Position numbers and translations under genes: made by a program
In this document: one piece after another, positions 3,880-28,151 of the stretch
Layout: each line of letters opens with the position of its first letter
How positions within the stretch are numbered: position 1 is the stretch's first letter
The notes under the pieces: model-generated
What the model saw: the letters and a program-made list of their open reading frames with translations, nothing else
Databases searched by the model: none
Told to the model about the DNA's origin: nothing
Assembly: GCA_009377865.1 (NCBI GenBank)
Contig: WHTH01000007.1
Coordinates: 1 to 64,000, forward strand
Length of the DNA stretch: 64,000 nucleotides
Source: Pseudonocardiaceae bacterium
Lineage (GTDB): Bacteria > Actinomycetota > Actinomycetes > Mycobacteriales > Pseudonocardiaceae
Reading direction: 5' to 3'

Positions 3880-4872
3880 ATGAGCCGAGGGTCCCACGGG
3901 GGCGCCTTCGAGCCGAACGGCGACGGCCACACGCCCGGCACGTCTCCGGGGTCGGACAGGTTCTGGCTCGGTGCGGCGCTGGTGCTGCTGCTCGGGTTCA
4001 TGGCCGTCGAGGTCGTCGTGGGGCTGCTGGCCGGCTCACTGGCGTTGCTGTCCGACGCCGCGCACATGCTCACCGATGCCGGAGCGATCGCGCTGGCACT
4101 GGTCGCGATCCGGCTGGCCGCCCGCCCGGCCCGCGGTGGCTACACCTTCGGGCTCAAGCGTGCCGAGATCCTCTCCGCGCAGGCCAACGGGATCACCCTG
4201 CTGCTGCTGACGGTCTACTTCGGCTACGAGGGCGTGCGCCGGCTGGTGGACCCACCGCCGGTGGAGGGCTTGCCGGTGCTGGTGACCGCGCTGGCCGGGA
4301 TCGTGGTGAACCTGGCCGCCACGTGGATGCTCGCCAGGGCCGACCGCCGCAGGCTCAACGTCGAGGGCGCCTTCCAGCACATCCTCACCGACCTGTTCGC
4401 CTTCATCGCGACCGCGGTCGCCGGGCTGGTGATGGTGCTGACCGGGTTCGCCCGGGCCGACGCACTGGCCGCACTGGTCGTCGCCGCGTTGATGGCCAAG
4501 GCGGGCTACGGGCTGGCGCTCGAGTCCGGGCGGATCTTCCTGGAGGCGGCGCCCCGCGGCATCGACCCACAGCGCGTCGAGGCCGACATCTGCTCGGTGA
4601 CCGGGGTCGTGGGCGTGCACGAACTGGACGTCTGGGAAGTCACCTCCGGCTTCACCGCGCTGTCCGCGCACGTGCTGGTCAGCACCGCCCATGACTGTCA
4701 CGAGCGCCGCGTCGCCGTCGAGCGGTCGCTGTCCGACCGCTTCGGCATCCACCACACCACGCTGCAGGTCGACCACCGCGACGAACCCGACGGTCGCACC
4801 GGGTCGTGTGCGGGCGCGAACGCGAGCTGCGGCGACCTGCCGGTCACGGACTCGATCAGTCCGCCACGATGA
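3880..4872 (+). CDS. CDF-family metal efflux transporter (CzcD/ZntB type)
   Basis: A 330-residue cation diffusion facilitator. Six membrane segments begin near residue 28 (FWLGAALVLLLGFMAVEVVV). The two metal-site motifs are SDAAHMLTD in the second helix and HILTDLFAF in the fifth, the HD/HD arrangement of zinc, cobalt or cadmium exporters, followed by a cytoplasmic domain of about 90 residues. Start ATG 3880 has GGGGAG 6-11 bases upstream; longer in-frame starts lack this. It is divergent from the CmtR-like repressor and is probably controlled by it. The stop codon lies two bases before the left attachment repeat of the island. Confidence 0.88.
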   Translation: MSRGSHGGAFEPNGDGHTPGTSPGSDRFWLGAALVLLLGFMAVEVVVGLLAGSLALLSDAAHMLTDAGAIALALVAIRLAARPARGGYTFGLKRAEILSAQANGITLLLLTVYFGYEGVRRLVDPPPVEGLPVLVTALAGIVVNLAATWMLARADRRRLNVEGAFQHILTDLFAFIATAVAGLVMVLTGFARADALAALVVAALMAKAGYGLALESGRIFLEAAPRGIDPQRVEADICSVTGVVGVHELDVWEVTSGFTALSAHVLVSTAHDCHERRVAVERSLSDRFGIHHTTLQVDHRDEPDGRTGSCAGANASCGDLPVTDSISPPR

Positions 4873-4873
4873 G

Positions 4874-4921
4874 GCTCCCCCAGCTGGATTCGAACCAGCA
4901 ACCCTGCGATTAACAGTCGCA
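4874..4921 (-). repeat. attR-like direct repeat: displaced 3' part of tRNA-Asn
   Basis: Identical over 48 bases to 20489-20536; the bases on both sides differ (4873 g against 20488 t; 4922 c against 20537 t), so the repeat is exactly bounded. It contains the anticodon arm, T arm and 3' acceptor strand but no D arm or 5' acceptor strand, so it is not a working tRNA gene. Confidence 0.92.
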
Positions 4922-5370
4922 CGACTGATCGTTGACTGCGGTTGGTGCCAGTTACCAGCAGAAACGGCGAAGGCACATGGCGACCAGTGGCTGTCATTGG
5001 CAGTTGATGTCCGCCATTTCTCATGCATAGATCGGGTCTATGATCTTGGTATGAGGTGGTCCGCCGCGAGTGTGCCGGGTCGTCTCAGCACCACGCCGGT
5101 CCTCGGACGAGGAAGCCGCGCCCGTGGCCACGGACCGTGCAACCCAACCCCTGACTACACCGCACGACCGTCCAAGATCCCGCAGACGATCCCCTGCGGG
5201 AGCTGGTCGACGCCCTATCAACTCCCACTCGCTGCCGCTCGAGTGGTCGCGTTATGGCCGCGGCGCGCTCAGCCAACAACGGCGCGTTGCGGCAGCGTCG
5301 AGCGTCGCCGAGTCCGTCGACAGCCGATGGCGCGGTGTGTGGTTGGAGCAGGTGTGCGGTCGCCAGGTCG
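4922..5370. other. Island left end, no convincing gene
   Basis: About 450 bp between the attachment repeat and the PIN gene. Several short frames exist on both strands, but none shows a recognisable family or good start context. The first 130 bp are relatively A/T-rich, as is common beside attachment sites. Confidence 0.5.
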
Positions 5371-5909
5371 TCAACGCAGCAGGTCTGCTGCGGCACCCGG
5401 GAGCCTGAGGGCTCGGTCCTGGTCGGCCATCTGCCGCAGCAGGTCGAATGCCTCCCTTGCAGCGATGTCGCCGTTCACGACGGCGAGGCTCATGAGGTCG
5501 GTTGTCTCGCGGGTGACGATGCCGCGAAAGCGGGCATACCGCAGCGCCTCCCGGTCGTCGGAAACCCACCACGAGCCCGCGAACGCGGCCCACTCGAGGA
5601 TCACGAAGCAGGTCTCGGCTTCCCGAGGTGCTCGAGCGGCTTGTCATCCGTACCACCGAAGACGGCGCGGCGAACGCGGTTGACCTGCTGGATGTCGGAC
5701 TCGGCGGTGATCTCGATCGGGTCGTCCAGCCAGCCCTCCGGGCCGAGGTCAGCGAGAGCGGGCAACGCCCGTGCAGACTTGGCCGCCTCGTATGCCACCG
5801 CAGCGGTCCATCTCCCTCGTCCGCCCAGTACTGACCGCAGCAGATCGAGGCGGTCGACCACAGCGAAGTTGCACAGCACCGTGTTGTCGGGGAACAAGAA
5901 CTCAGTCAC
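5371..5909 (-). pseudogene. PIN-like domain protein, broken by a -1 frameshift
   Basis: Starting at GTG 5909 (4-nt overlap with the ImmA gene stop), the frame encodes FPDNTVLCNFAVVDRLDLL, an N-terminal PIN-like start with an Asp, and runs to LEHLGKPRPAS-stop. In the next frame the sequence continues as EAETCFVILEWAAFAG, then SDDREALRYARFRG, the middle and end of a PIN-like fold with its Glu and Asp residues. One more G in the GGG near 5613 would join both into a 179-residue protein (present length 539). PIN domains are usually RNases acting as toxins. Coupling to an XRE/ImmA protein suggests a toxin-antitoxin or stress-response pair; the function is inferred. Confidence 0.65.
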
Positions 5910-7009
5910 GGGGCGTCGTAGCCTCCGCTCTCGGACTCCAGCGCACGCTTGAGCTCGTCGACGTCGACGCCGATGAGGTTGGCGTACGGGCGGAGCGTGG
6001 TGGCACCCGCATCGTGGGCGGCATAGGTGTCGCGGGCGAGCAGGCCCGGCGGGCGTGGTCGGCTCGCTTCGGTGACGCGGTGCGCGAACTCCGCGCTGCG
6101 ACCAGCCAGTCTCGCCGCCGTGACTCCGGTCATCGTCTTATGGCGGTCGCACATGCCGGCGTCGACCAGCCGGAGGTGCAGCAGCCGGTAGGCCAACGCC
6201 GACGGGGTGACCATGAGGTCGCACGACAGCGCCGCGAAGGCCTCCTCGGTGAGGCCGGTCGACCCGACCGCTCGACGGAGCAAGTCCTCCGGCATCAGAA
6301 AGGCGGCGGCGAAGGAGTTGGCCCGCCTCTCACTCGGGTTCCTCGCTTGCGCCTTGTCGAAGATGTCCTGATCGAGGTGGACGCCTTGATCATCGCCGGC
6401 GAGCAGGTGCCCGAGCTCGTGGGCCAGCGTGAACCGCTGCCGAGCAGGCACCTGGGAGGTCGCCAGCACGACGAGTTTGACCTCGTCCGACGAGGTCGCC
6501 AAGCCGTCGAAGCCCGACCCGAGGTCGACGACGGCCACGTCGGCACCGAATACCTCCTCCACGAGGGCGGCCAGATCCGCCTCCTCGGCGGAGTGGCCAC
6601 GCCGGCTGACTTGTTCGAGTGCTGCCCTCGCCAGCCGGCCACCCTGGTCGACCCAGGTGCCGGTATCGAGGCGGAAGTCAACCGATCGCCAGGGTTGGGG
6701 GAAGCCGAGCTCGGCGATGTCCGATCGCAGTGTGCTGAGCCGCCTGGCTTCGCGGGTCGCGGTGCAGGCGCTGCCACCCGTGGTGCGGGCCGCCAGTGCG
6801 AGGGGCGGCTCGTCGCCGGTGATGAGCCAGTCGACGGTGACCTCGCAGAGGTCCGCGATCCGGGCGAGGTCCAGGGACGAGAAGCGCCGACTGCCGCTCA
6901 ACGACTTCGACAGCTTCGAGTCGTCGAGCCCGATCTTCAGCGCGAAGTCGTGCTGCGTCAGACCAGATGCCTGGATCAGGTCACGCACGCGATCGAGGGT
7001 GTTCGACAC
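5906..7009 (-). CDS. XRE-type HTH protein fused to ImmA/IrrE metallopeptidase
   Basis: A 367-residue protein. Residues 1-70 are an XRE helix-turn-helix (LTQHDFALKIGLDDSKLSKS, then DLARIADLCEVTVDWLI). The second half is an ImmA/IrrE-type zinc peptidase with FTLAHELGHLLAG (HELGH at 197-201) and a following SERRANSFAAAFLMP helix that supplies the third ligand. Such proteins cleave or de-repress partner regulators in mobile elements and stress responses. It starts at GTG 7009 and overlaps the downstream PIN-like gene by 4 nt. The palindrome at 7031-7045 is a likely self-operator. It lies within the island and may serve its maintenance. Confidence 0.85.
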   Translation of the reverse strand: MSNTLDRVRDLIQASGLTQHDFALKIGLDDSKLSKSLSGSRRFSSLDLARIADLCEVTVDWLITGDEPPLALAARTTGGSACTATREARRLSTLRSDIAELGFPQPWRSVDFRLDTGTWVDQGGRLARAALEQVSRRGHSAEEADLAALVEEVFGADVAVVDLGSGFDGLATSSDEVKLVVLATSQVPARQRFTLAHELGHLLAGDDQGVHLDQDIFDKAQARNPSERRANSFAAAFLMPEDLLRRAVGSTGLTEEAFAALSCDLMVTPSALAYRLLHLRLVDAGMCDRHKTMTGVTAARLAGRSAEFAHRVTEASRPRPPGLLARDTYAAHDAGATTLRPYANLIGVDVDELKRALESESGGYDAP

Positions 7010-21651: not shown

Positions 21652-22190
21652 GGCTCCGACCGGGCCTGCCGCAGCCGGGTAGCCAGCTCCGCTGCGACGG
21701 CCGCCACGACATCGCGGTCGGTCCCCGGGTCGGGACGAACCTGCAGCACCACCCCGTCGCGGCCGGGAATCTTGCGCTGCACGAACCGGGCACCGCCACC
21801 GGGCAGCTCGCGGTAATGGCTGGAGCGTATCGACCCGGTAACCCTGGCCTGCACGATCTCGGGAACCTTGCCGGGCTCGGCGAGCCGAAGCTGCCGCGGT
21901 GGTAGCTCGGCGAGCAGTTCGGCGTCGCCGGCCTGCCCGTCGGGCACCGCCTCGGTGAGCGCGAGGGCGCTGCGGTCCCACACCGCCTTGCTCACCTGAT
22001 GCCAGCCGATCCGCCGCACGGTGTCGCCCTCGGGCACCCACAGCCCGAACTGGGTGAGCACCAGATGCCCGCCTCGTGCCAGGGTGCCCACCGCGAGGAC
22101 GTCTTCGCCGGGGTCGAGCCGGCCGGTGAAGCCCTCCGGCAGCGTCGGCGCGCGCAGCAGGGCGCACCACAGCCGTCGCCAGGCGATCAC
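21648..22190 (-). CDS. Conserved hypothetical protein coupled to dnaG
   Basis: A 180-residue soluble protein without recognisable motifs. It has a PH-like or beta-rich look in the first half ([20 protein letters not shown], then [15 protein letters not shown]) and an Arg-rich basic C-terminus. Start GTG 22190 and stop 21648 overlap dnaG and tam by 4 nt each. Its function is unknown. Confidence 0.7.
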
Positions 22191-24070
22191 TGCAGCGCGC
22201 CCATCGCCTGCTCCCGCAGCGCCTTGTGGTACTGCTCGAGCGCGACGAGGTCACCGAACAGGTTGTGGAACTCGTCGGTGTCCTGGTCGGGCGACAGCCG
22301 TTGCAGCCGCGATTTCAGCTCACCGATCTGCCGCCCGACCAGCTCGGCCTGCAGCCCCGCCAGCACCCCGTTGACGTAGCGTGGATCGGTCTCGTCCTTC
22401 GTCGGGAGGATCTCGACGGCGAGCTCGGACAGCAGGGCGCGCGTTGATGGCTGCGCGCAGTGCTCGCGCACCGCGTCGATCCATTCCGGACCCGACAAGC
22501 CCGCAGCGCACCCGCCGGCTGCCAGCACGGCGCGATGGACCTCGCGGTAGGCGGGGTGTCCGAACGCCTGGTGCGGCAGCGTGTCATAGACCGGTCCGGC
22601 CAGCGCGGGCAGCTGCAGCGCGGCCTTGAGCACATTGCGCTGCGCGACCAGGTGCGGATCCGTGCGCGACGGCAGCGGCGGTCCTTCCGGCCCAGGCTCG
22701 GCGTCCGATGTCCGGCGTCGCCGCGGTGCGCTGGCCGGGGCCCCCGCGGTCTCCCGCACCCGCCGCAGCACGGCGCCGACGTCGGCCCAGCCCACCCAGC
22801 CGGCGAGCTGGCGCGCGTACTCGTCGCGCAGCGCCACATCCTTGATCCGCGCCACCAGCGGCACGGTGCGCCGAAGCGCCTCCACCCGGCCCTCGGGGGT
22901 CTCGAGATCGTGCTCGGCCAGTACCGCGCGGACCGCGAAGGAAAACAGCGGCTGACGTCGTGCGACGAGGTCGCGCACCGCGGCATCGCCCTTCGACTGC
23001 CGCAGCTCGCACGGGTCCATACCCTCGGCGGCGACGGCGATGAAGGTCTGTGCGGCGAAGCGCTGCTCATCGTCGAACGCCTTGAGCGCCGCCTGCCGGC
23101 CCGCCTCGTCCCCGTCGAAGGTGAAGATCACCTCGCCGCGGAAGGCATCGTCGTCCATCAGCAGCCGGCGCAGCACCGAGATGTGGTCGACGCCGAACGC
23201 CGTCCCGCAGGACGCCACCGCGGTGGGCACCCCCGACAGGTGCATCGCCATCACGTCGGTGTAGCCCTCGACCACCACCACCTGGTGACGGCGGGCGATC
23301 TCCCGCTTGGCCTTGTCGATGCCGAAGAGCACCTGCGACTTCTTGTAGACCGGGCTCTCGCTGGTGTTGAGATACTTGGCCTCGATGCGGTCGTCGTCGA
23401 ACAGCCGGCGCGCGCCGAAGCCGACGACGTCGCCGCCGAGGTCGCGGATCGGCCACAGCAGCCGCCGGTGAAACCGGTCGATCGGACCCTGCCTGCCCTC
23501 CCGGCACAGCTGCGCCGTGTAGAGCTCGGTCAGCTCGAAGCCCCGTCCGAGCAGATGCTTGGTCAGCCGGTCCCACCCCGACGGCGCGAACCCGCAGCCG
23601 AAGTCGACCGCCGCTGCTTCATCGAAGCCGCGGTCGGTGAGGAACTCCCGCGCCGACCGGGCCTCCGGTGAGTGCAGCAGCTCGGCGTAGAACTCGGCGG
23701 CGAGCTTGTTGGCTTCCACGATCCGGGAGCGGGTGCCCCGGTCGCGCTGCACCGACGACCCGCCGCCGGTGTAGGTCAGCCGGATCCCGACCCGATCGGC
23801 GAGCCGCTCGACCGCTTCGACGAACCCCAGGTGCTCGATCTTCATCACGAAGTCGACGACCGAGCCGCCCTCACCGCATCCGAAGCAGTGGAACGTGCCG
23901 TGGCCGGGGCGCACGTTGAACGAGGGGGTCTTCTCGTCGTGGAACGGGCACAGCCCCTTCAGCGAGCCCGCTCCGGCGCGGCGCAATGCCACGTAGTCGC
24001 CGACCACCTCGTCGATCTGGTTGCGCTCGCGGACCTCCGCGATGTCGGAGTCCCGGATACGTCCCGCCAC
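22187..24070 (-). CDS. dnaG: DNA primase
   Basis: A 627-residue primase making RNA primers at the replication fork. Residues 38-65 form the zinc-binding domain ([15 protein letters not shown], then [10 protein letters not shown]). The TOPRIM core shows [13 protein letters not shown] with its catalytic Glu, [16 protein letters not shown], and [12 protein letters not shown]. The last 170 residues form the helicase-binding region. Start GTG 24070. Two downstream genes follow with 4-nt overlaps. Confidence 0.96.
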
Positions 24071-24105
24071 GGATAGCGAGTCTAGGTCGTGTCACACCTC
24101 GGTCG

Positions 24106-24132
24106 TGTCACACCTCGGCACGCCGTCCCGTC
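24106..24132 (+). promoter_or_regulatory. ECF41-like promoter TGTCACA-N16-CGTC
   Basis: TGTCACA at 24106-24112 is followed after exactly 16 bases by CGTC at 24129-24132, 40 bp before the membrane-protein start. As I recall, this is the published signature of ECF41 sigma factors, and an ECF41-type gene lies just downstream. A second TGTCACA at 24090-24096 belongs to a 16-bp tandem duplication (24085-24116) but has no matching CGTC. Confidence 0.65.
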
Positions 24133-24171
24133 CCTCGTGTGCAGCGATCCGACGACGAGGAGGGGTGGACC

Positions 24172-24591
24172 ATGCTGACGATGGCTCGCTGGGTGGCGGT
24201 GCTGGCCGGCTTCTTCTATCTGGTGTTCGGCATGTGGGCGTTCGCGGCGCCGGGGTCCTTCGCGGAGACGGTGGCTTCCTTTCCGCCGTACAACGTGCAC
24301 TACCTGCACGATCTGGGCGCGTTCCAGGTCGGCCTCGGGGTCGCGCTGCTCGCCGCGGTGATCTGGTCGAACGCCCTGGGCGCGGTGCTCGCGGGGGTGG
24401 CGGCAACGTCGGTTCTGCACACGGTGTCGCATGTGACCGACCACGGTCTCGGCGGCCGGGCCTCCGATCCGTACTCCCTCGGGCTGCTCGCCGTGGTGGT
24501 GCTCGTCGGCCTCGTCGCGGCAGCGCGCCGCACCCCCTCCCCGCAGGTACGCGCCGGCGCGAGTTCCGATCGCCCTCCTTCCCGTCTATGA
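24172..24591 (+). CDS. Four-helix membrane protein, probable ECF41 target
   Basis: A 139-residue protein with four hydrophobic segments (WVAVLAGFFYLVFGMWAF, FQVGLGVALLAAVIWSN, GAVLAGVAATSVLHTV, LGLLAVVVLVGLVAAAR), of DoxX- or DUF4383-like size; family uncertain. GAGGAGGGG precedes ATG 24172. It lies downstream of the ECF41-like promoter and 79 bp before the sigma factor, so the two may form an autoregulated operon. Confidence 0.65.
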   Translation: MLTMARWVAVLAGFFYLVFGMWAFAAPGSFAETVASFPPYNVHYLHDLGAFQVGLGVALLAAVIWSNALGAVLAGVAATSVLHTVSHVTDHGLGGRASDPYSLGLLAVVVLVGLVAAARRTPSPQVRAGASSDRPPSRL

Positions 24592-24670
24592 ACTCGACGC
24601 GGTGGAGCCCGGCTCGGCGTCTGACCCCCACGGCGTCGAGCTCATGGACACCGCGGCGGCGGGTGGCAGG

Positions 24671-25579
24671 ATGAGCGCTGTGAGCACGGGTGTCGATGCG
24701 CTGGCTGCCGAGTTCCAGCAGCATCGGTCGCACCTGCTCGGGGTGGGCTACCGACTGACCGGCAGCTGGGCCGACGCCGAGGACGCGGTACAGGAGAGCT
24801 GGCTGCGACTGCAGCGCACCGGGCGCGAGGAGGTGCACGACCTGCGCGGCTGGCTCACGGTCGTGGTAGGGCGGCTGTGCCTGGACCGGCTACGCTCGGC
24901 CGCCGCGCGGCGCGAACGCTACGTCGGGCCGTGGCTTCCCGAGCCGCTGGTGACGTCGCTCGACGAGCCGGCAGACGATGTGGTTCGCGACGAGGGTGTG
25001 CGGATGGCGGCGCTGGTGGTGCTGGAGCGGCTGACCCCCGACCAGCGCATCGCATTCGTGCTGCACGACGCGTTCGGCGTGCCCTTCGACGAGATCGCCG
25101 CCGTGCTGGGCTGCTCGGTGTCCGCCGCACGGCAGCACGCCTCCCGCGGGCGGCGGTCGGTTGCCGACGCCGACCCGCCCCCGCGCGCAGCATTGTCCGA
25201 GCAGCGCCGGGTGCTCGAGGCGCTGACGACCGCGCTCGCCGCCGCCGACCTCGATGCGGTGGTCGCGCTGCTGCATCCCGATGCCGTCCTGCTGGGCGAC
25301 GGTGGCGGCAAGGAGCGCACCGCCCGTCGCCCGGTCGCGGGGGCCGAGAAGGTGGCCCGGTTCCTGCTCGGCCTGCTCGAGCGTTACGGCGCCGACCAAC
25401 TCACCGCCGCCGGTCCGGTCCTCGTCAACGGTGATCTGGGCCTGCTCATCCCGGCCTCACCGGGCGACGCCGACCACCCGACGCCGATCGCCCGTCGCGT
25501 CTCCGGTTTCGCGGTGCGCGACGGGCGGATCTCCACGATCTACGACATCGTCAACCCCGACAAGCTGACCCGCCTCTGA
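24671..25579 (+). CDS. ECF41-type RNA polymerase sigma factor with SnoaL-like C-terminal domain
   Basis: A 302-residue sigma factor. Region 2 (HRSHLLGVGYRLTGSWADAE, then AVQESWLRLQ) and region 4 (LTPDQRIAFVLHDAFGVPFD, then AAVLGCSVSAARQHASRGRR) are followed by an NTF2/SnoaL-like domain. The ECF41 markers are all present: WLPEP in the linker, DGGGK, and YDIVNPDKL at the end. In this group the C-terminal domain replaces an anti-sigma factor and tunes activity. Start ATG 24671 is preferred. The convergent neighbour is a carboxymuconolactone decarboxylase, the classical partner. Confidence 0.92.
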   Translation: MSAVSTGVDALAAEFQQHRSHLLGVGYRLTGSWADAEDAVQESWLRLQRTGREEVHDLRGWLTVVVGRLCLDRLRSAAARRERYVGPWLPEPLVTSLDEPADDVVRDEGVRMAALVVLERLTPDQRIAFVLHDAFGVPFDEIAAVLGCSVSAARQHASRGRRSVADADPPPRAALSEQRRVLEALTTALAAADLDAVVALLHPDAVLLGDGGGKERTARRPVAGAEKVARFLLGLLERYGADQLTAAGPVLVNGDLGLLIPASPGDADHPTPIARRVSGFAVRDGRISTIYDIVNPDKLTRL

Positions 25580-25584
25580 CCCTC

Positions 25585-25636
25585 ATGGAGACATGTGGGG
25601 GCAAAGCAGCACCCTTTTACCCCCTCATGTCTCCAT
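25585..25636. terminator. Bidirectional hairpin between sigma factor and decarboxylase genes
   Basis: ATGGAGACATG (25585-25595) pairs with CATGTCTCCAT (25626-25636), and GGGGG (25597-25601) pairs with CCCCC (25620-25624), with an 18-nt loop. It sits between two convergent genes and includes the stop codon of the minus-strand one. There is no long T-run, as usual for high-GC terminators. Confidence 0.75.
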
Positions 25637-26230
25637 CTGGGGTGAGGCGGTGGGCGGCGCGTCGGCGGGGACCGGGACCCGGCACGCGTCACCCGAGGTG
25701 AAGCCCTGGTCGGTGATGCCCAGTGCGTGGTTGAACCGGGCACGGTGGTTCTCCACCGCGACGGCGTAGGTCAGCTCCACCATGCCGCGATGCCCGAGCT
25801 CGGCGTCGAGCTCGGCGACCATCTCGTCGGTGACCGCGGTCGGCAGCGCGGTCATGGCGTCGGCGTAGGCCAGTGCCCGCCGTTCCACCTCGCTGAACGC
25901 CGACGATGTGGCATAGTCGTCGATCGCGTGCAGCCGCTCCAGATCCAGGCCCTGGTGGCGGGCGAGCATGGTGCCGAAGTCGACACACCAGGAGCAGCCG
26001 ACCTGGGTGGCCACCCGGTGGACGACCAGCTCGCGCAGTGCCGCCGGCAGTTGACGCATCGCCTTCTCGTTGGCCAGCTCCCACGCGGAGTACGCCAGCA
26101 GCACCGGCCGGTGATGCAGCATGACCGTCGCGGGCTCGGGCACCGCACCGTAACGGCGGCGCGCGAAGCTGTAGAGCAGCCAGCCGAGCAGTCCGGCCGA
26201 TCGGGTGGGCACTCCGGGGACGCGCGGCAT
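25625..26230 (-). CDS. Carboxymuconolactone decarboxylase/AhpD-like protein, ECF41 partner
   Basis: A 201-residue all-helical protein. The AhpD-type redox motif is CSWCVDFGTMLARH, and the signature EVERRALAYADAMT follows. Such proteins act as thiol peroxidase or reductase partners or as decarboxylases. ECF41 sigma factors are usually found with a COE gene (carboxymuconolactone decarboxylase, oxidoreductase or epimerase) as their main target. Start ATG 26230 has GAGGAGG upstream, and an ECF41-like promoter lies 51 bp before it. Confidence 0.87.
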   Translation of the reverse strand: MPRVPGVPTRSAGLLGWLLYSFARRRYGAVPEPATVMLHHRPVLLAYSAWELANEKAMRQLPAALRELVVHRVATQVGCSWCVDFGTMLARHQGLDLERLHAIDDYATSSAFSEVERRALAYADAMTALPTAVTDEMVAELDAELGHRGMVELTYAVAVENHRARFNHALGITDQGFTSGDACRVPVPADAPPTASPQMET

Positions 26231-26280
26231 GATGATCCCTCCTCAGGCTCGGCCCACCGGTTGCGGGCCTTCACCACGAG

Positions 26281-26307
26281 GACGGAGCAGGGCCCGCACA
26301 TGTGACG
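26281..26307 (-). promoter_or_regulatory. ECF41-like promoter CGTCACA-N16-CGTC
   Basis: On the minus strand CGTCACA (26307-26301), one base off TGTCACA, is followed after exactly 16 bases by CGTC (26284-26281), about 50 bp before the decarboxylase start. It has the same spacing as the promoter at 24106-24132, which supports control of both by the sigma factor encoded between them. Confidence 0.6.
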
Positions 26308-26339
26308 GTGACGCGCGGATGGCCCGGAATGACAGCGCT

Positions 26340-26393
26340 CGTGAGTGGCGAAGCGGAGGCCCGGCTCGCCGGAAACCAGCAAAGCCACTCACG
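26340..26393 (-). terminator. Hairpin at the end of the aftB-like gene
   Basis: CGTGAGTGGC (26340-26349) pairs with GCCACTCACG (26384-26393), and the loop can form an inner GC stem. The stop codon of the minus-strand gene (26391-26389) lies within the arm. It probably ends transcription of the dgt/aftB operon. Confidence 0.6.
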
Positions 26394-28151
26394 GGCGCGA
26401 AGCGCACTGCTCGGCGGCCACCTCGGGGATCCGGGAGAAGCGCAGCGCGGTGCGCTCGGGCGCGCCGACGAGGTTGCGCCAGAACCGTTGCGGGGACAGC
26501 GGCGCGCGTACCGAGTCGAGCATCTCCTGGATCCGCGGGCAGGCCAGCGCTTCACGGGCATGCCGGATCGGCGCAGCGGGACCGGGCCCGGGCGGGCGCA
26601 CCTCGTCGGCGATGAGCCAAGCGACCGGCAGGTCCTTGTCGTGCCCGATGCGGCCGCCGAGCTCGGGGGTCGAGTGGGCGGCCAGCGGGTTGGCGAGGCC
26701 GACAGGGTCGACCACCCGCACGCCGACCGGGTGCGCCGCCGACATCGCGCCGAGGTTGGGGAACGGGACCGTGACGTGACCGACACCGTCGCGAGCGGTG
26801 TGGGGCCGCCAGTAGTCGTAGGCGCGCCCGTGGTCGACGAGCAGCACTGCGGGCTCGTCGACCCGCGCCACCGCGGCGACCGAGCGCCGCACGAGACTGC
26901 GGCCCTGGATGAAGTCCCGGGCCGTGACTGGGTGGTCGGAGTCGAGCGCGTCCGACCAGAAGGCCCGCTCGTCGACGATCCCCGTGGCCGGGTCGATCCG
27001 GGCGACGGACTCGGCCCGCAGCCCGCCCGGCGCGACGGCCATCCAGACGGCCAGGCCCAGCACGGGTAGCACCGTCGTCGCGGTCAGCGGTACGACGAGG
27101 ACCGGCAGCAGCAGCGCGGTGATCGCCGGGAGCAGCATCCGGCCGTGCATGAAGTCACCGCCCACCCGCACCACGTACAGCGCGGTGAGCAGCCCCGCGA
27201 CCATGGGCAGGAAGGCGACGGCGACGGTGGCCCACCGGTCCGTCCATCCTCGCGGCGGCCCACCAGGACGGCGAGGACCAGCAGCCCGCAGCCGACCGGC
27301 AGCCACAGCCAGTAGGTGGCGACGGTGTCCTGCAGGTAGGCGATCCCGTCCTGCCAGCGCACCCGGGCTGCCTCCTTGGCGAGCGCGGAGGCGGGCACCA
27401 GCAGTCCGTAGTAGCCGGCGCGGAAGATCTCGTAGCCGACCGGCACCGCGGCCGCCGCGCCGGCGAGACCCAGCAGCCGCTGCCATCCCGGTCGCAGCGT
27501 CGCCACCAGGACCAGCAGGCCCAGAATCGCGAAGATGCCGAGATCCGGGCGCACCAGCGGGCCGATGCCCAGTGCCACCGCGGCCAGCCACGAGACAGCC
27601 CCGGTCCGCCGCTGCCGGGCGAGCACGACGAGCAGCCACCACGTGCCCGCCATCCAGAGCGTGACGAGGCCGGTCTCCAGGCCCGACGTCAGGAAGTCGC
27701 GCGCCGGCGGCAGCGCGAGCACCACCACCACACCGAGCGGCACCAGCACCACCCGGGTCGAATGCAGCCGGCGGGCGGCGTCGCACCCGAGACCGATCCC
27801 GGCAGCACCGAAGGCCAGCCCCACGAACACCGCCGCGGCTTCCAGAGACACGCCGGGGACGGATCCCACCACGGTGAGGACGGCGGTCCACGCGGTGCTG
27901 GTGTTCGCCTCGATCCGCTCCCCCGCGTTGAACACCGGCCCGTTGCCCACGAGCAGCTGGCGGACGGTGCGCAGCACGATCAGCCCGTCGTCGGCGATCC
28001 AGCGCTGCTGCCAGCCCAGCAGCCAGGCCGCCACCACGCCGGCGGCGACCAGCACGGCATTCCAGGCGGACACCGGATGCGGCAGCCGCCACCGCGGCCC
28101 GGCACGGAGCGCCACGACCTCGACCGGCCGCTCCTCGACCGTCGTCAGCAT
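26389..28151 (-). pseudogene. aftB: AftB-like arabinofuranosyltransferase, interrupted by a -1 frameshift
   Basis: The first frame has RWIADDGLIVLRTVRQLLVG, NGPVFNAGERIEANTSTAWT, ARDFLTSGLETGLV, LVRPDLGIF and GYYGLLVPASALAKEAAR, closely like mycobacterial AftB, a GT-C enzyme adding terminal beta-1,2 arabinofuranose to arabinogalactan and lipoarabinomannan. Near 27240 the frame is lost after VGRREDG and resumes as TDRWATVAVAFLPMVAGLL, then GGDFMHGRMLLP, and a soluble C-terminal domain. Length 1763 is one base short of 588 codons. Start ATG 28151 overlaps the dgt stop by 7 nt. An otherwise intact long gene argues for a recent mutation or a sequencing error. Confidence 0.8.

Follow-up and report, generated by a model that had tools for sequence, protein, structure and literature searches.

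A Pseudonocardiaceae ECF41 (SigJ-type) sigma factor locus with two probable outputs: a carboxymuconolactone decarboxylase and a conserved, usually non-adjacent four-helix membrane protein

The DNA analysed here, called the window, comprises the first 64,000 nucleotides of contig WHTH01000007.1 from the genome of a Pseudonocardiaceae bacterium (assembly GCA_009377865.1; 4.0 Mb in 121 contigs). Adjoining dnaG (22187-24070, minus strand), it carries a three-gene locus encoding a four-helix membrane protein (4TM), a sigma factor of the extracytoplasmic function (ECF) group ECF41 and an AhpD-like carboxymuconolactone decarboxylase (CMD) (Table 1). An earlier note on this DNA had described a sigma gene flanked by two ECF41-like promoters with identical 16-bp spacers, and both sites are indeed present. 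Our analysis suggests that the locus probably has two outputs, the CMD gene and the membrane gene, and that the latter is a conserved target which in other genomes usually lies away from the sigma gene. The closest named relative found is the Pseudonocardiaceae metagenome-assembled genome (MAG) L065 (Dino_bin20). No RNA families were found at the locus, and neither sigma-70 promoters nor T-run terminators were found in 24000-26500.

Table 1. Features of the ECF41 locus in the window
Feature	Coordinates	Strand	Details
Tandem duplication, 16 bp, copying the -35 box of the membrane-gene promoter	24082..24113	+	
Membrane gene promoter, ECF41-type	24106..24132	+	-35 TGTCACA 24106-24112, 16-bp spacer, -10 CGTC 24129-24132
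Four-helix membrane protein (4TM), 139 aa	24172..24591	+	
Hairpin, from the membrane gene stop codon towards the sigma start	24584..24649	+	22-nt arms, 86% complementary, no T-run
ECF41 (SigJ-type) sigma gene	24683..25579	+	sigma2, WLPEP linker, sigma4, SnoaL_2 C-terminal domain
Hairpin where the sigma and CMD genes converge	25580..25641	.	-51 kcal/mol, z -6.9
CMD/AhpD-like gene	25625..26230	-	PF02627, ahpD_dom TIGR00778, CSWC
CMD gene promoter, ECF41-type	26281..26307	-	-35 CGTCACA 26307-26301, 16-bp spacer, -10 CGTC 26284-26281

The sigma factor is a member of ECF41 (SigJ-type). Sigma70_r2 (residues 11-74), Sigma70_r4_2 (109-158) and SnoaL_2 (179-284) are all found above the Pfam gathering score, and the protein reaches 371 bits against the NCBIfam SigJ model NF007214 (cut-off 271). 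The signature motifs WLPEP, DGGGK and NPDKL, which had already been recognised in the earlier note, are located at residues 80 (as YVGPWLPEP), 206 and 291. A search of the genome with the sigma protein gives nine matches, among which the window gene is the only intact ECF41 gene found. The second-best match is a truncated ECF41-like frame of 116 aa (L057, G000:C111), and the third-best is a PRK08241/TIGR02960-type factor, the SigX5/PRK08241 type being represented among the other matches. The remaining six are weaker, and one of those six was inspected. In L065 (about 4860-6000) the sigma frame departs from the ECF41 sequence just past WLPEP and continues as another protein, through a deletion or a misassembly.

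The consensus promoter TGTCACA-n16-CGTC, the COE (carboxymuconolactone decarboxylase, oxidoreductase or epimerase) genes and the fused C-terminal domain of ECF41 were described by Wecke et al. (2012, PMC3426412), a paper which, like the others cited below, is represented here by extracts. Both promoters of the locus fit this consensus. Before the membrane gene, TGTCACA-CCTCGGCACGCCGTCC-CGTC ends 39 bp 5' of the ATG. The 4TM reading frame remains open 5' of its ATG, and the site falls in this extension, ahead of both the ATG and the ribosome-binding site. Of the duplicated -35 boxes the second copy alone has CGTC at 16 bp, and L065 carries a single copy of the duplicated unit. Before the CMD gene, CGTCACA-TGTGCGGGCCCTGCTC-CGTC ends 50 bp 5' of the ATG, with C instead of T at the first -35 base, as is likewise observed in many Mycobacterium homologues. 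In Sinorhizobium meliloti the motif is found 9 nt upstream of a mapped start site (PMC3616915, extract). The sigma gene, on the same strand as the membrane gene, starts 91 bp after its end and has no site of its own, the scan of the window giving no N16 motif between the two genes. The CMD carries its CxxC as CSWC and its gene is convergent with the sigma gene, as for a COE neighbour; this convergent order (>ECF><COE<) makes up 9 of 373 contexts in the extract of PMC3426412. Sigma architecture and motifs, promoter, CxxC CMD target and convergent order are all shared with the known ECF41/COE systems.

The earlier note had proposed a genome-wide search for the motif and took a random frequency as speaking against its prediction. 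The outcome is divided. GTCACA-N16-CGTC occurs twice in the window against 0.37 expected (at least two in 4 of 100 shuffles), and ten times in the whole genome against four for the reversed pattern. The looser YGTCACR-N16-CGTC occurs 29 times against 19 for its control. These frequencies are close to those of the control patterns, and the bare motif count was rejected as evidence; the case therefore rests on position and conservation. Eight of the ten exact sites, including one directly at a start codon, fall in predicted coding frames, and only the two window sites are in promoter position. Both placements depend on a crude calling of open reading frames by a codon-usage score. With two exact sites in promoter position and one intact ECF41 factor, the small regulon that had been predicted is supported for this genome. 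Among the 29 looser sites, three are followed immediately by a gene and do not fall inside another one, namely the two window sites and G000:C56:39676 (L275 277). This third site, TGTCACG-N16-CGTC, is found 92 bp 5' of a long frame and is outside the five best scores of the weight matrix introduced below.

The membrane-gene promoter is conserved in relatives. Our search with the membrane protein covered 249 genomes of the bacterial family and gave 85 matches in 73 of them, and the upstream DNA was examined for all 85. A strict motif, defined as [TC]GTCAC[AG]-N16-CGTC no more than 300 bp before the match, is found for 26 of the 35 homologues with at least 60 bits, for none of the five with 35-60 bits, for 5 of 24 with 25-35 bits and for 3 of 21 below 25 bits. 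As an off-register control, 21 other spacings upstream of the 35 strong homologues give a total of seven occurrences, with a maximum of four at one spacing (N11). When 79 homologues are clustered at 75% identity, the motif is present within 200 bp in 20 of 35 clusters, against 0.01 expected from shuffled upstream DNA. A collection of named loci, which partly overlaps with the family set, shows the motif at 36 of 46 4TM loci, every one with N16 and CGTC and mostly 50-115 bp before the start. The motif-bearing taxa are Mycobacterium, Mycolicibacterium, Prauserella, Actinophytocola, Amycolatopsis, Herbihabitans, Haloechinothrix, a Propionibacteriales MAG and a Thermomicrobiales MAG, the last being the only named locus outside Actinobacteria with the motif. 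In the stretches examined, a sigma match is found near one of the 36 motif-bearing loci, that of the sister genome L065. Since the other 35 have none, the promoter is tied to the membrane gene and not to a sigma neighbourhood. The suggestion of a new membrane-protein target in the earlier note thus gains from homologues that keep the same promoter with no sigma gene nearby. Its description of the regulon as self-contained is too narrow, because the 4TM gene of relatives is mostly not beside a sigma gene and mostly carries a fused oxidoreductase domain.

The same loci bear on a different explanation, in which the window holds an ordinary ECF41 locus with CMD as its sole real target. The 4TM site would then mainly transcribe the sigma gene, and the membrane gene would be a passenger. 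Such an arrangement would resemble Bacillus licheniformis, Rhodobacter sphaeroides and S. meliloti, for which the extracts of PMC3426412 and PMC6180224 give COE genes, and the sigma gene where it is co-transcribed, as sole targets (a single one for S. meliloti RpoE9 in PMC6180224). The short same-strand distance from the membrane gene to the sigma gene would also suit it. A passenger, however, would lose the site once no sigma gene follows, and nearly all motif-bearing loci have kept it under just these circumstances. We regard this explanation as quite improbable, and the membrane gene as a probable target in its own right.

The relatives also show what the membrane protein is associated with. 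Of the 46 named loci, 34 encode a membrane domain that runs in frame into a second domain, and 27 fused proteins can be aligned over their full length. In the fusion that was scanned (the L049 protein) this second domain belongs to the PPOX-class F420-dependent oxidoreductases, Rv2061 family (TIGR03666, 115.2 bits against a cut-off of 84.9), whereas the window protein consists of the membrane domain only. Stand-alone PPOX enzymes were traced among 298 genomes of the order. The nine nearest with loci have the motif 27-76 bp upstream in six cases (five with CGTC and one with CGTT), and the next 20 relatives have it in one, at 240 bp. All four motif-bearing stand-alone enzymes that were scanned match TIGR03666 over the cut-off. 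As 4TM and PPOX occur both separate and fused, with the same type of promoter, the two proteins very likely work together. In the window genome no TIGR03666 match over the cut-off was found, and the partner of its 4TM protein may therefore be the CMD or another enzyme. A predicted structure of the 4TM-PPOX fusion (pLDDT 81, pTM 0.61) is too weak for placing the two domains. In Haloechinothrix alba (L109, 5920-6423) the 4TM-PPOX frame stops early, at 168 aa and within the second domain, and the promoter motif is present.

Promoters of CMD genes provide an independent standard for the membrane-gene sites. A SigJ-model match over the cut-off is found in 31 of 32 genomes tested, many having several, and the best SigJ-model loci of these 32 genomes gave 30 loci for examination. 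A homologue of the window CMD (35-68% identical) adjoins the sigma gene in 20 of the 30 and is convergent with it in 19. The motif precedes 16 of these 19 convergent genes; L218 has none, and for L213 and L214 the stretch is missing. A weight matrix was built from 15 CMD sites and used for ranking all YGTCACR-N16-CGTC sites in five genomes, with sites from other genomes only, the tested genome's own being left out. The 4TM site ranks first and the CMD site second of 29 in the window genome. In G021 (Prauserella shujinwangii, L100) the 4TM-PPOX site is first and the CMD site second of 24, and in G034 the CMD site is first and the 4TM site second of 42, so that the 4TM gene scores like established targets in three of the five genomes ranked. 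In G175 the CMD site is first of 18 and the site of a Pyr_redox_2 oxidoreductase second, an oxidoreductase type which belongs to the COE types in Wecke et al. (PMC3426412, extract). With CMD and Pyr_redox_2 genes at the top ranks, the matrix retrieves established kinds of ECF41 targets. The second site of G175 (L272 184-1403, G175:C17) lies before the Pyr_redox_2 (FAD/NAD) gene on a contig other than that of the CMD, and this gene is a probable further trans target of ECF41 on the evidence of its site.

It should be considered which sigma factor reads the trans sites. They could be read by another ECF factor, either an ECF41 paralogue or a SnoaL-bearing factor of the ECF56/ECF205 type, and their link to the SigJ orthologue would then be indirect. 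The frequent occurrence of several SigJ-model matches per genome leaves room for such a reader, and further SnoaL-bearing ECF groups exist (PMC8999054, extract). In the window genome, however, one intact ECF41 gene was found and both promoters are its top two sites, and the -35 element TGTCACA is described as ECF41-specific in the extract of PMC3426412. We consider another reader unlikely, though to be taken seriously, and infer that the ECF41 factor of the locus reads both promoters.

Several observations weigh against a conserved 4TM target of ECF41. Seven of the 35 strong family homologues lack even a relaxed motif within 300 bp; of these, one is truncated by the end of its contig, L024 has a more distant site and L053 has a site before a partial sigma match. 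The motif is also absent beside the membrane gene in four Chloroflexi loci and one Acidimicrobiaceae locus (L067, L071, L072, L077 and L069). In the matrix ranking of G296 the CMD site is first and the 4TM-PPOX site just 11th of 30, and G175 has a site before the FAD oxidoreductase gene but none before its 4TM gene. Most genomes tested have several ECF41-type matches and hence several candidate readers of the trans sites. A solved relative of the 4TM protein was not found either, as there is no sequence match in the PDB and no Foldseek match at E ≤ 0.001; a second structural comparison gave Z scores up to 7.3, a level common for helical bundles.

The AlphaFold2 model of the 4TM protein (mean pLDDT 93.5) contains long helices at residues 4-25, 42-64, 68-89 and 99-119 and shorter ones at 27-34 and 124-130. 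Fourteen residues (G20, F30, H43, D47, G49, A50, F51, Q52, G54, H83, H87, D90, G94 and G95) are invariant in 37 4TM sequences, and H46 is kept in at least 90% of them. The signature reads HxxHDxGAFQxG ... HxxxHxxDxxxGG. Residues H43, H46 and D47 are located at the start of helix 2 and H83, H87 and D90 at the end of helix 3, and from these places in the helix order both groups should share one membrane face. The enzyme fused to the C-terminus, together with arginines close to either end, suggests cytoplasmic termini and an extracytoplasmic His/Asp site; the shared outer face is deduced from helix order and the C-terminal enzyme, not from coordinates. Binding of a metal, a haem or a quinone at this site is a guess.

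No Pfam or NCBIfam family scores over its cut-off for the window protein. DUF4345 (PF14248) was rejected as its identity, with 13.1 bits and E 0.099 far below the gathering cut-off of 26.5. Weak Pfam matches in some of the 37 members (eight to DUF4345, seven to DUF4267 and one to DoxX_2) point to a place towards the DUF4345/DUF4267/DoxX-like group, which has the same four-helix build and similar size, although the window protein carries its own signature.

A membrane protein encoded just upstream of a sigma gene could also be a regulator of it, that is, a new membrane anti-sigma factor or a sensor instead of a redox partner. ECF factors are commonly co-transcribed with anti-sigma factors (PMC3426412, extract), and the gene order in the window would agree with this. 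Against such a role, the same extract describes the C-terminal domain of ECF41 factors, and no anti-sigma factor, as governing them, and in most homologues the membrane domain is joined to an enzyme domain and no sigma gene lies close by. Nearly all of the 139 residues are in membrane-length helices, leaving no soluble sigma-binding domain. A regulatory role is therefore very unlikely in our judgement.

For the preferred reading, in which both CMD and 4TM genes are targets, the following mechanism is proposed. The sigma factor would be controlled by its own fused SnoaL_2 domain, without an anti-sigma factor, as is known for the group, and would guide RNA polymerase to the two [TC]GTCAC[AG]-N16-CGTC promoters. 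Its first output would be the convergent CxxC CMD/AhpD-like gene, the classical ECF41 output, and its second the four-helix membrane protein. In related actinobacteria the 4TM gene is found at unrelated places with the same promoter, mostly fused to the Rv2061-family PPOX F420 oxidoreductase, and the 4TM protein would form the membrane-bound half of a redox unit produced upon the ECF41 signal, both the signal and the chemistry being presumptive. In the window species it may act with the CMD. A more far-reaching version is put forward as a tentative idea that we would ourselves call doubtful: ECF41/SigJ factors might control a dispersed redox module built around a membrane-anchored F420-dependent oxidoreductase of a new kind, with its invariant His/Asp site (H43, D47, H83, H87 and D90) at the outer membrane face and the F420 enzyme on the cytoplasmic C-terminus, which could pass electrons to a membrane-bound acceptor (such as a quinone or a metal) or render a lipophilic oxidant harmless.

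Positive autoregulation could arise if transcription of the membrane gene reads through into the sigma gene. The intervening hairpin includes the stop codon of the membrane gene and, with z -1.2, is unexceptional for its base composition. L065 has a similar hairpin, in which, with two sequences compared, one A-U pair is replaced by G-C and two more pairs have a change on one side. The hairpin may damp the read-through, and in the proposed mechanism it probably does. The other hairpin, a strong one between the sigma and CMD genes, is probably a two-way terminator for both. In the Chloroflexia MAG L077 a motif is found 116 bp 5' of a sigma match, and a 4TM gene lies 1.2 kb downstream of that match, which gives an independent hint of a sigma-4TM arrangement.

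An ECF41 factor from Azospirillum is said, by the title of a reference, to control lateral flagella. The extract of Wecke et al. (PMC3426412) concludes that control is limited to one gene or one operon, located at the locus itself, and reports no conserved regulon at other places; the conservation screen gave COE and ECF41 genes only. Pyridox_oxidase-domain genes beside ECF41 are counted there under the oxidoreductase class, and the legend of figure 2 mentions hypothetical genes, left unnamed, that carry the motif and lie at ECF41 loci. For mycobacterial SigJ, listed as ECF41 in the extract of PMC8999054 and the namesake of the model matched by the window sigma factor, the target named in the extract of PMC4821874 is sigI, and not a 4TM or 4TM-PPOX gene. 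In the open-access literature searched we found no report of 4TM or 4TM-PPOX as an ECF41 target. In the known ECF41/COE systems the target is at the locus, whereas the 4TM and 4TM-PPOX genes keep the promoter at dispersed places. The ECF41 family itself is known; a conserved and usually non-adjacent membrane/oxidoreductase target, as suggested by two sites in promoter position here and by candidate trans sites in relatives, would go against the published view of a single adjacent target.

ECF41 is a widespread group, for which a single local gene or operon has so far been reported as the output. A conserved trans target with links both to the membrane and to a PPOX/F420-type enzyme would give a clue to the purpose of ECF41 and reporters for finding its signal. 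Genomes with a single intact ECF41 factor and two target promoters, such as the window genome, are the simplest setting for a test.

Two minor observations concern more distant members of the 4TM family. In an Acidimicrobiaceae MAG (L069, 5986-6950) a 4TM gene, with no strict motif upstream, has a CMD homologue (38%) after it in the same orientation. Among the 45 homologues below 35 bits, the strict N16 motif is found in eight (L026, L198, L199, L203, L279, L292, L293 and L300), so that the target family may extend beyond that traced here.

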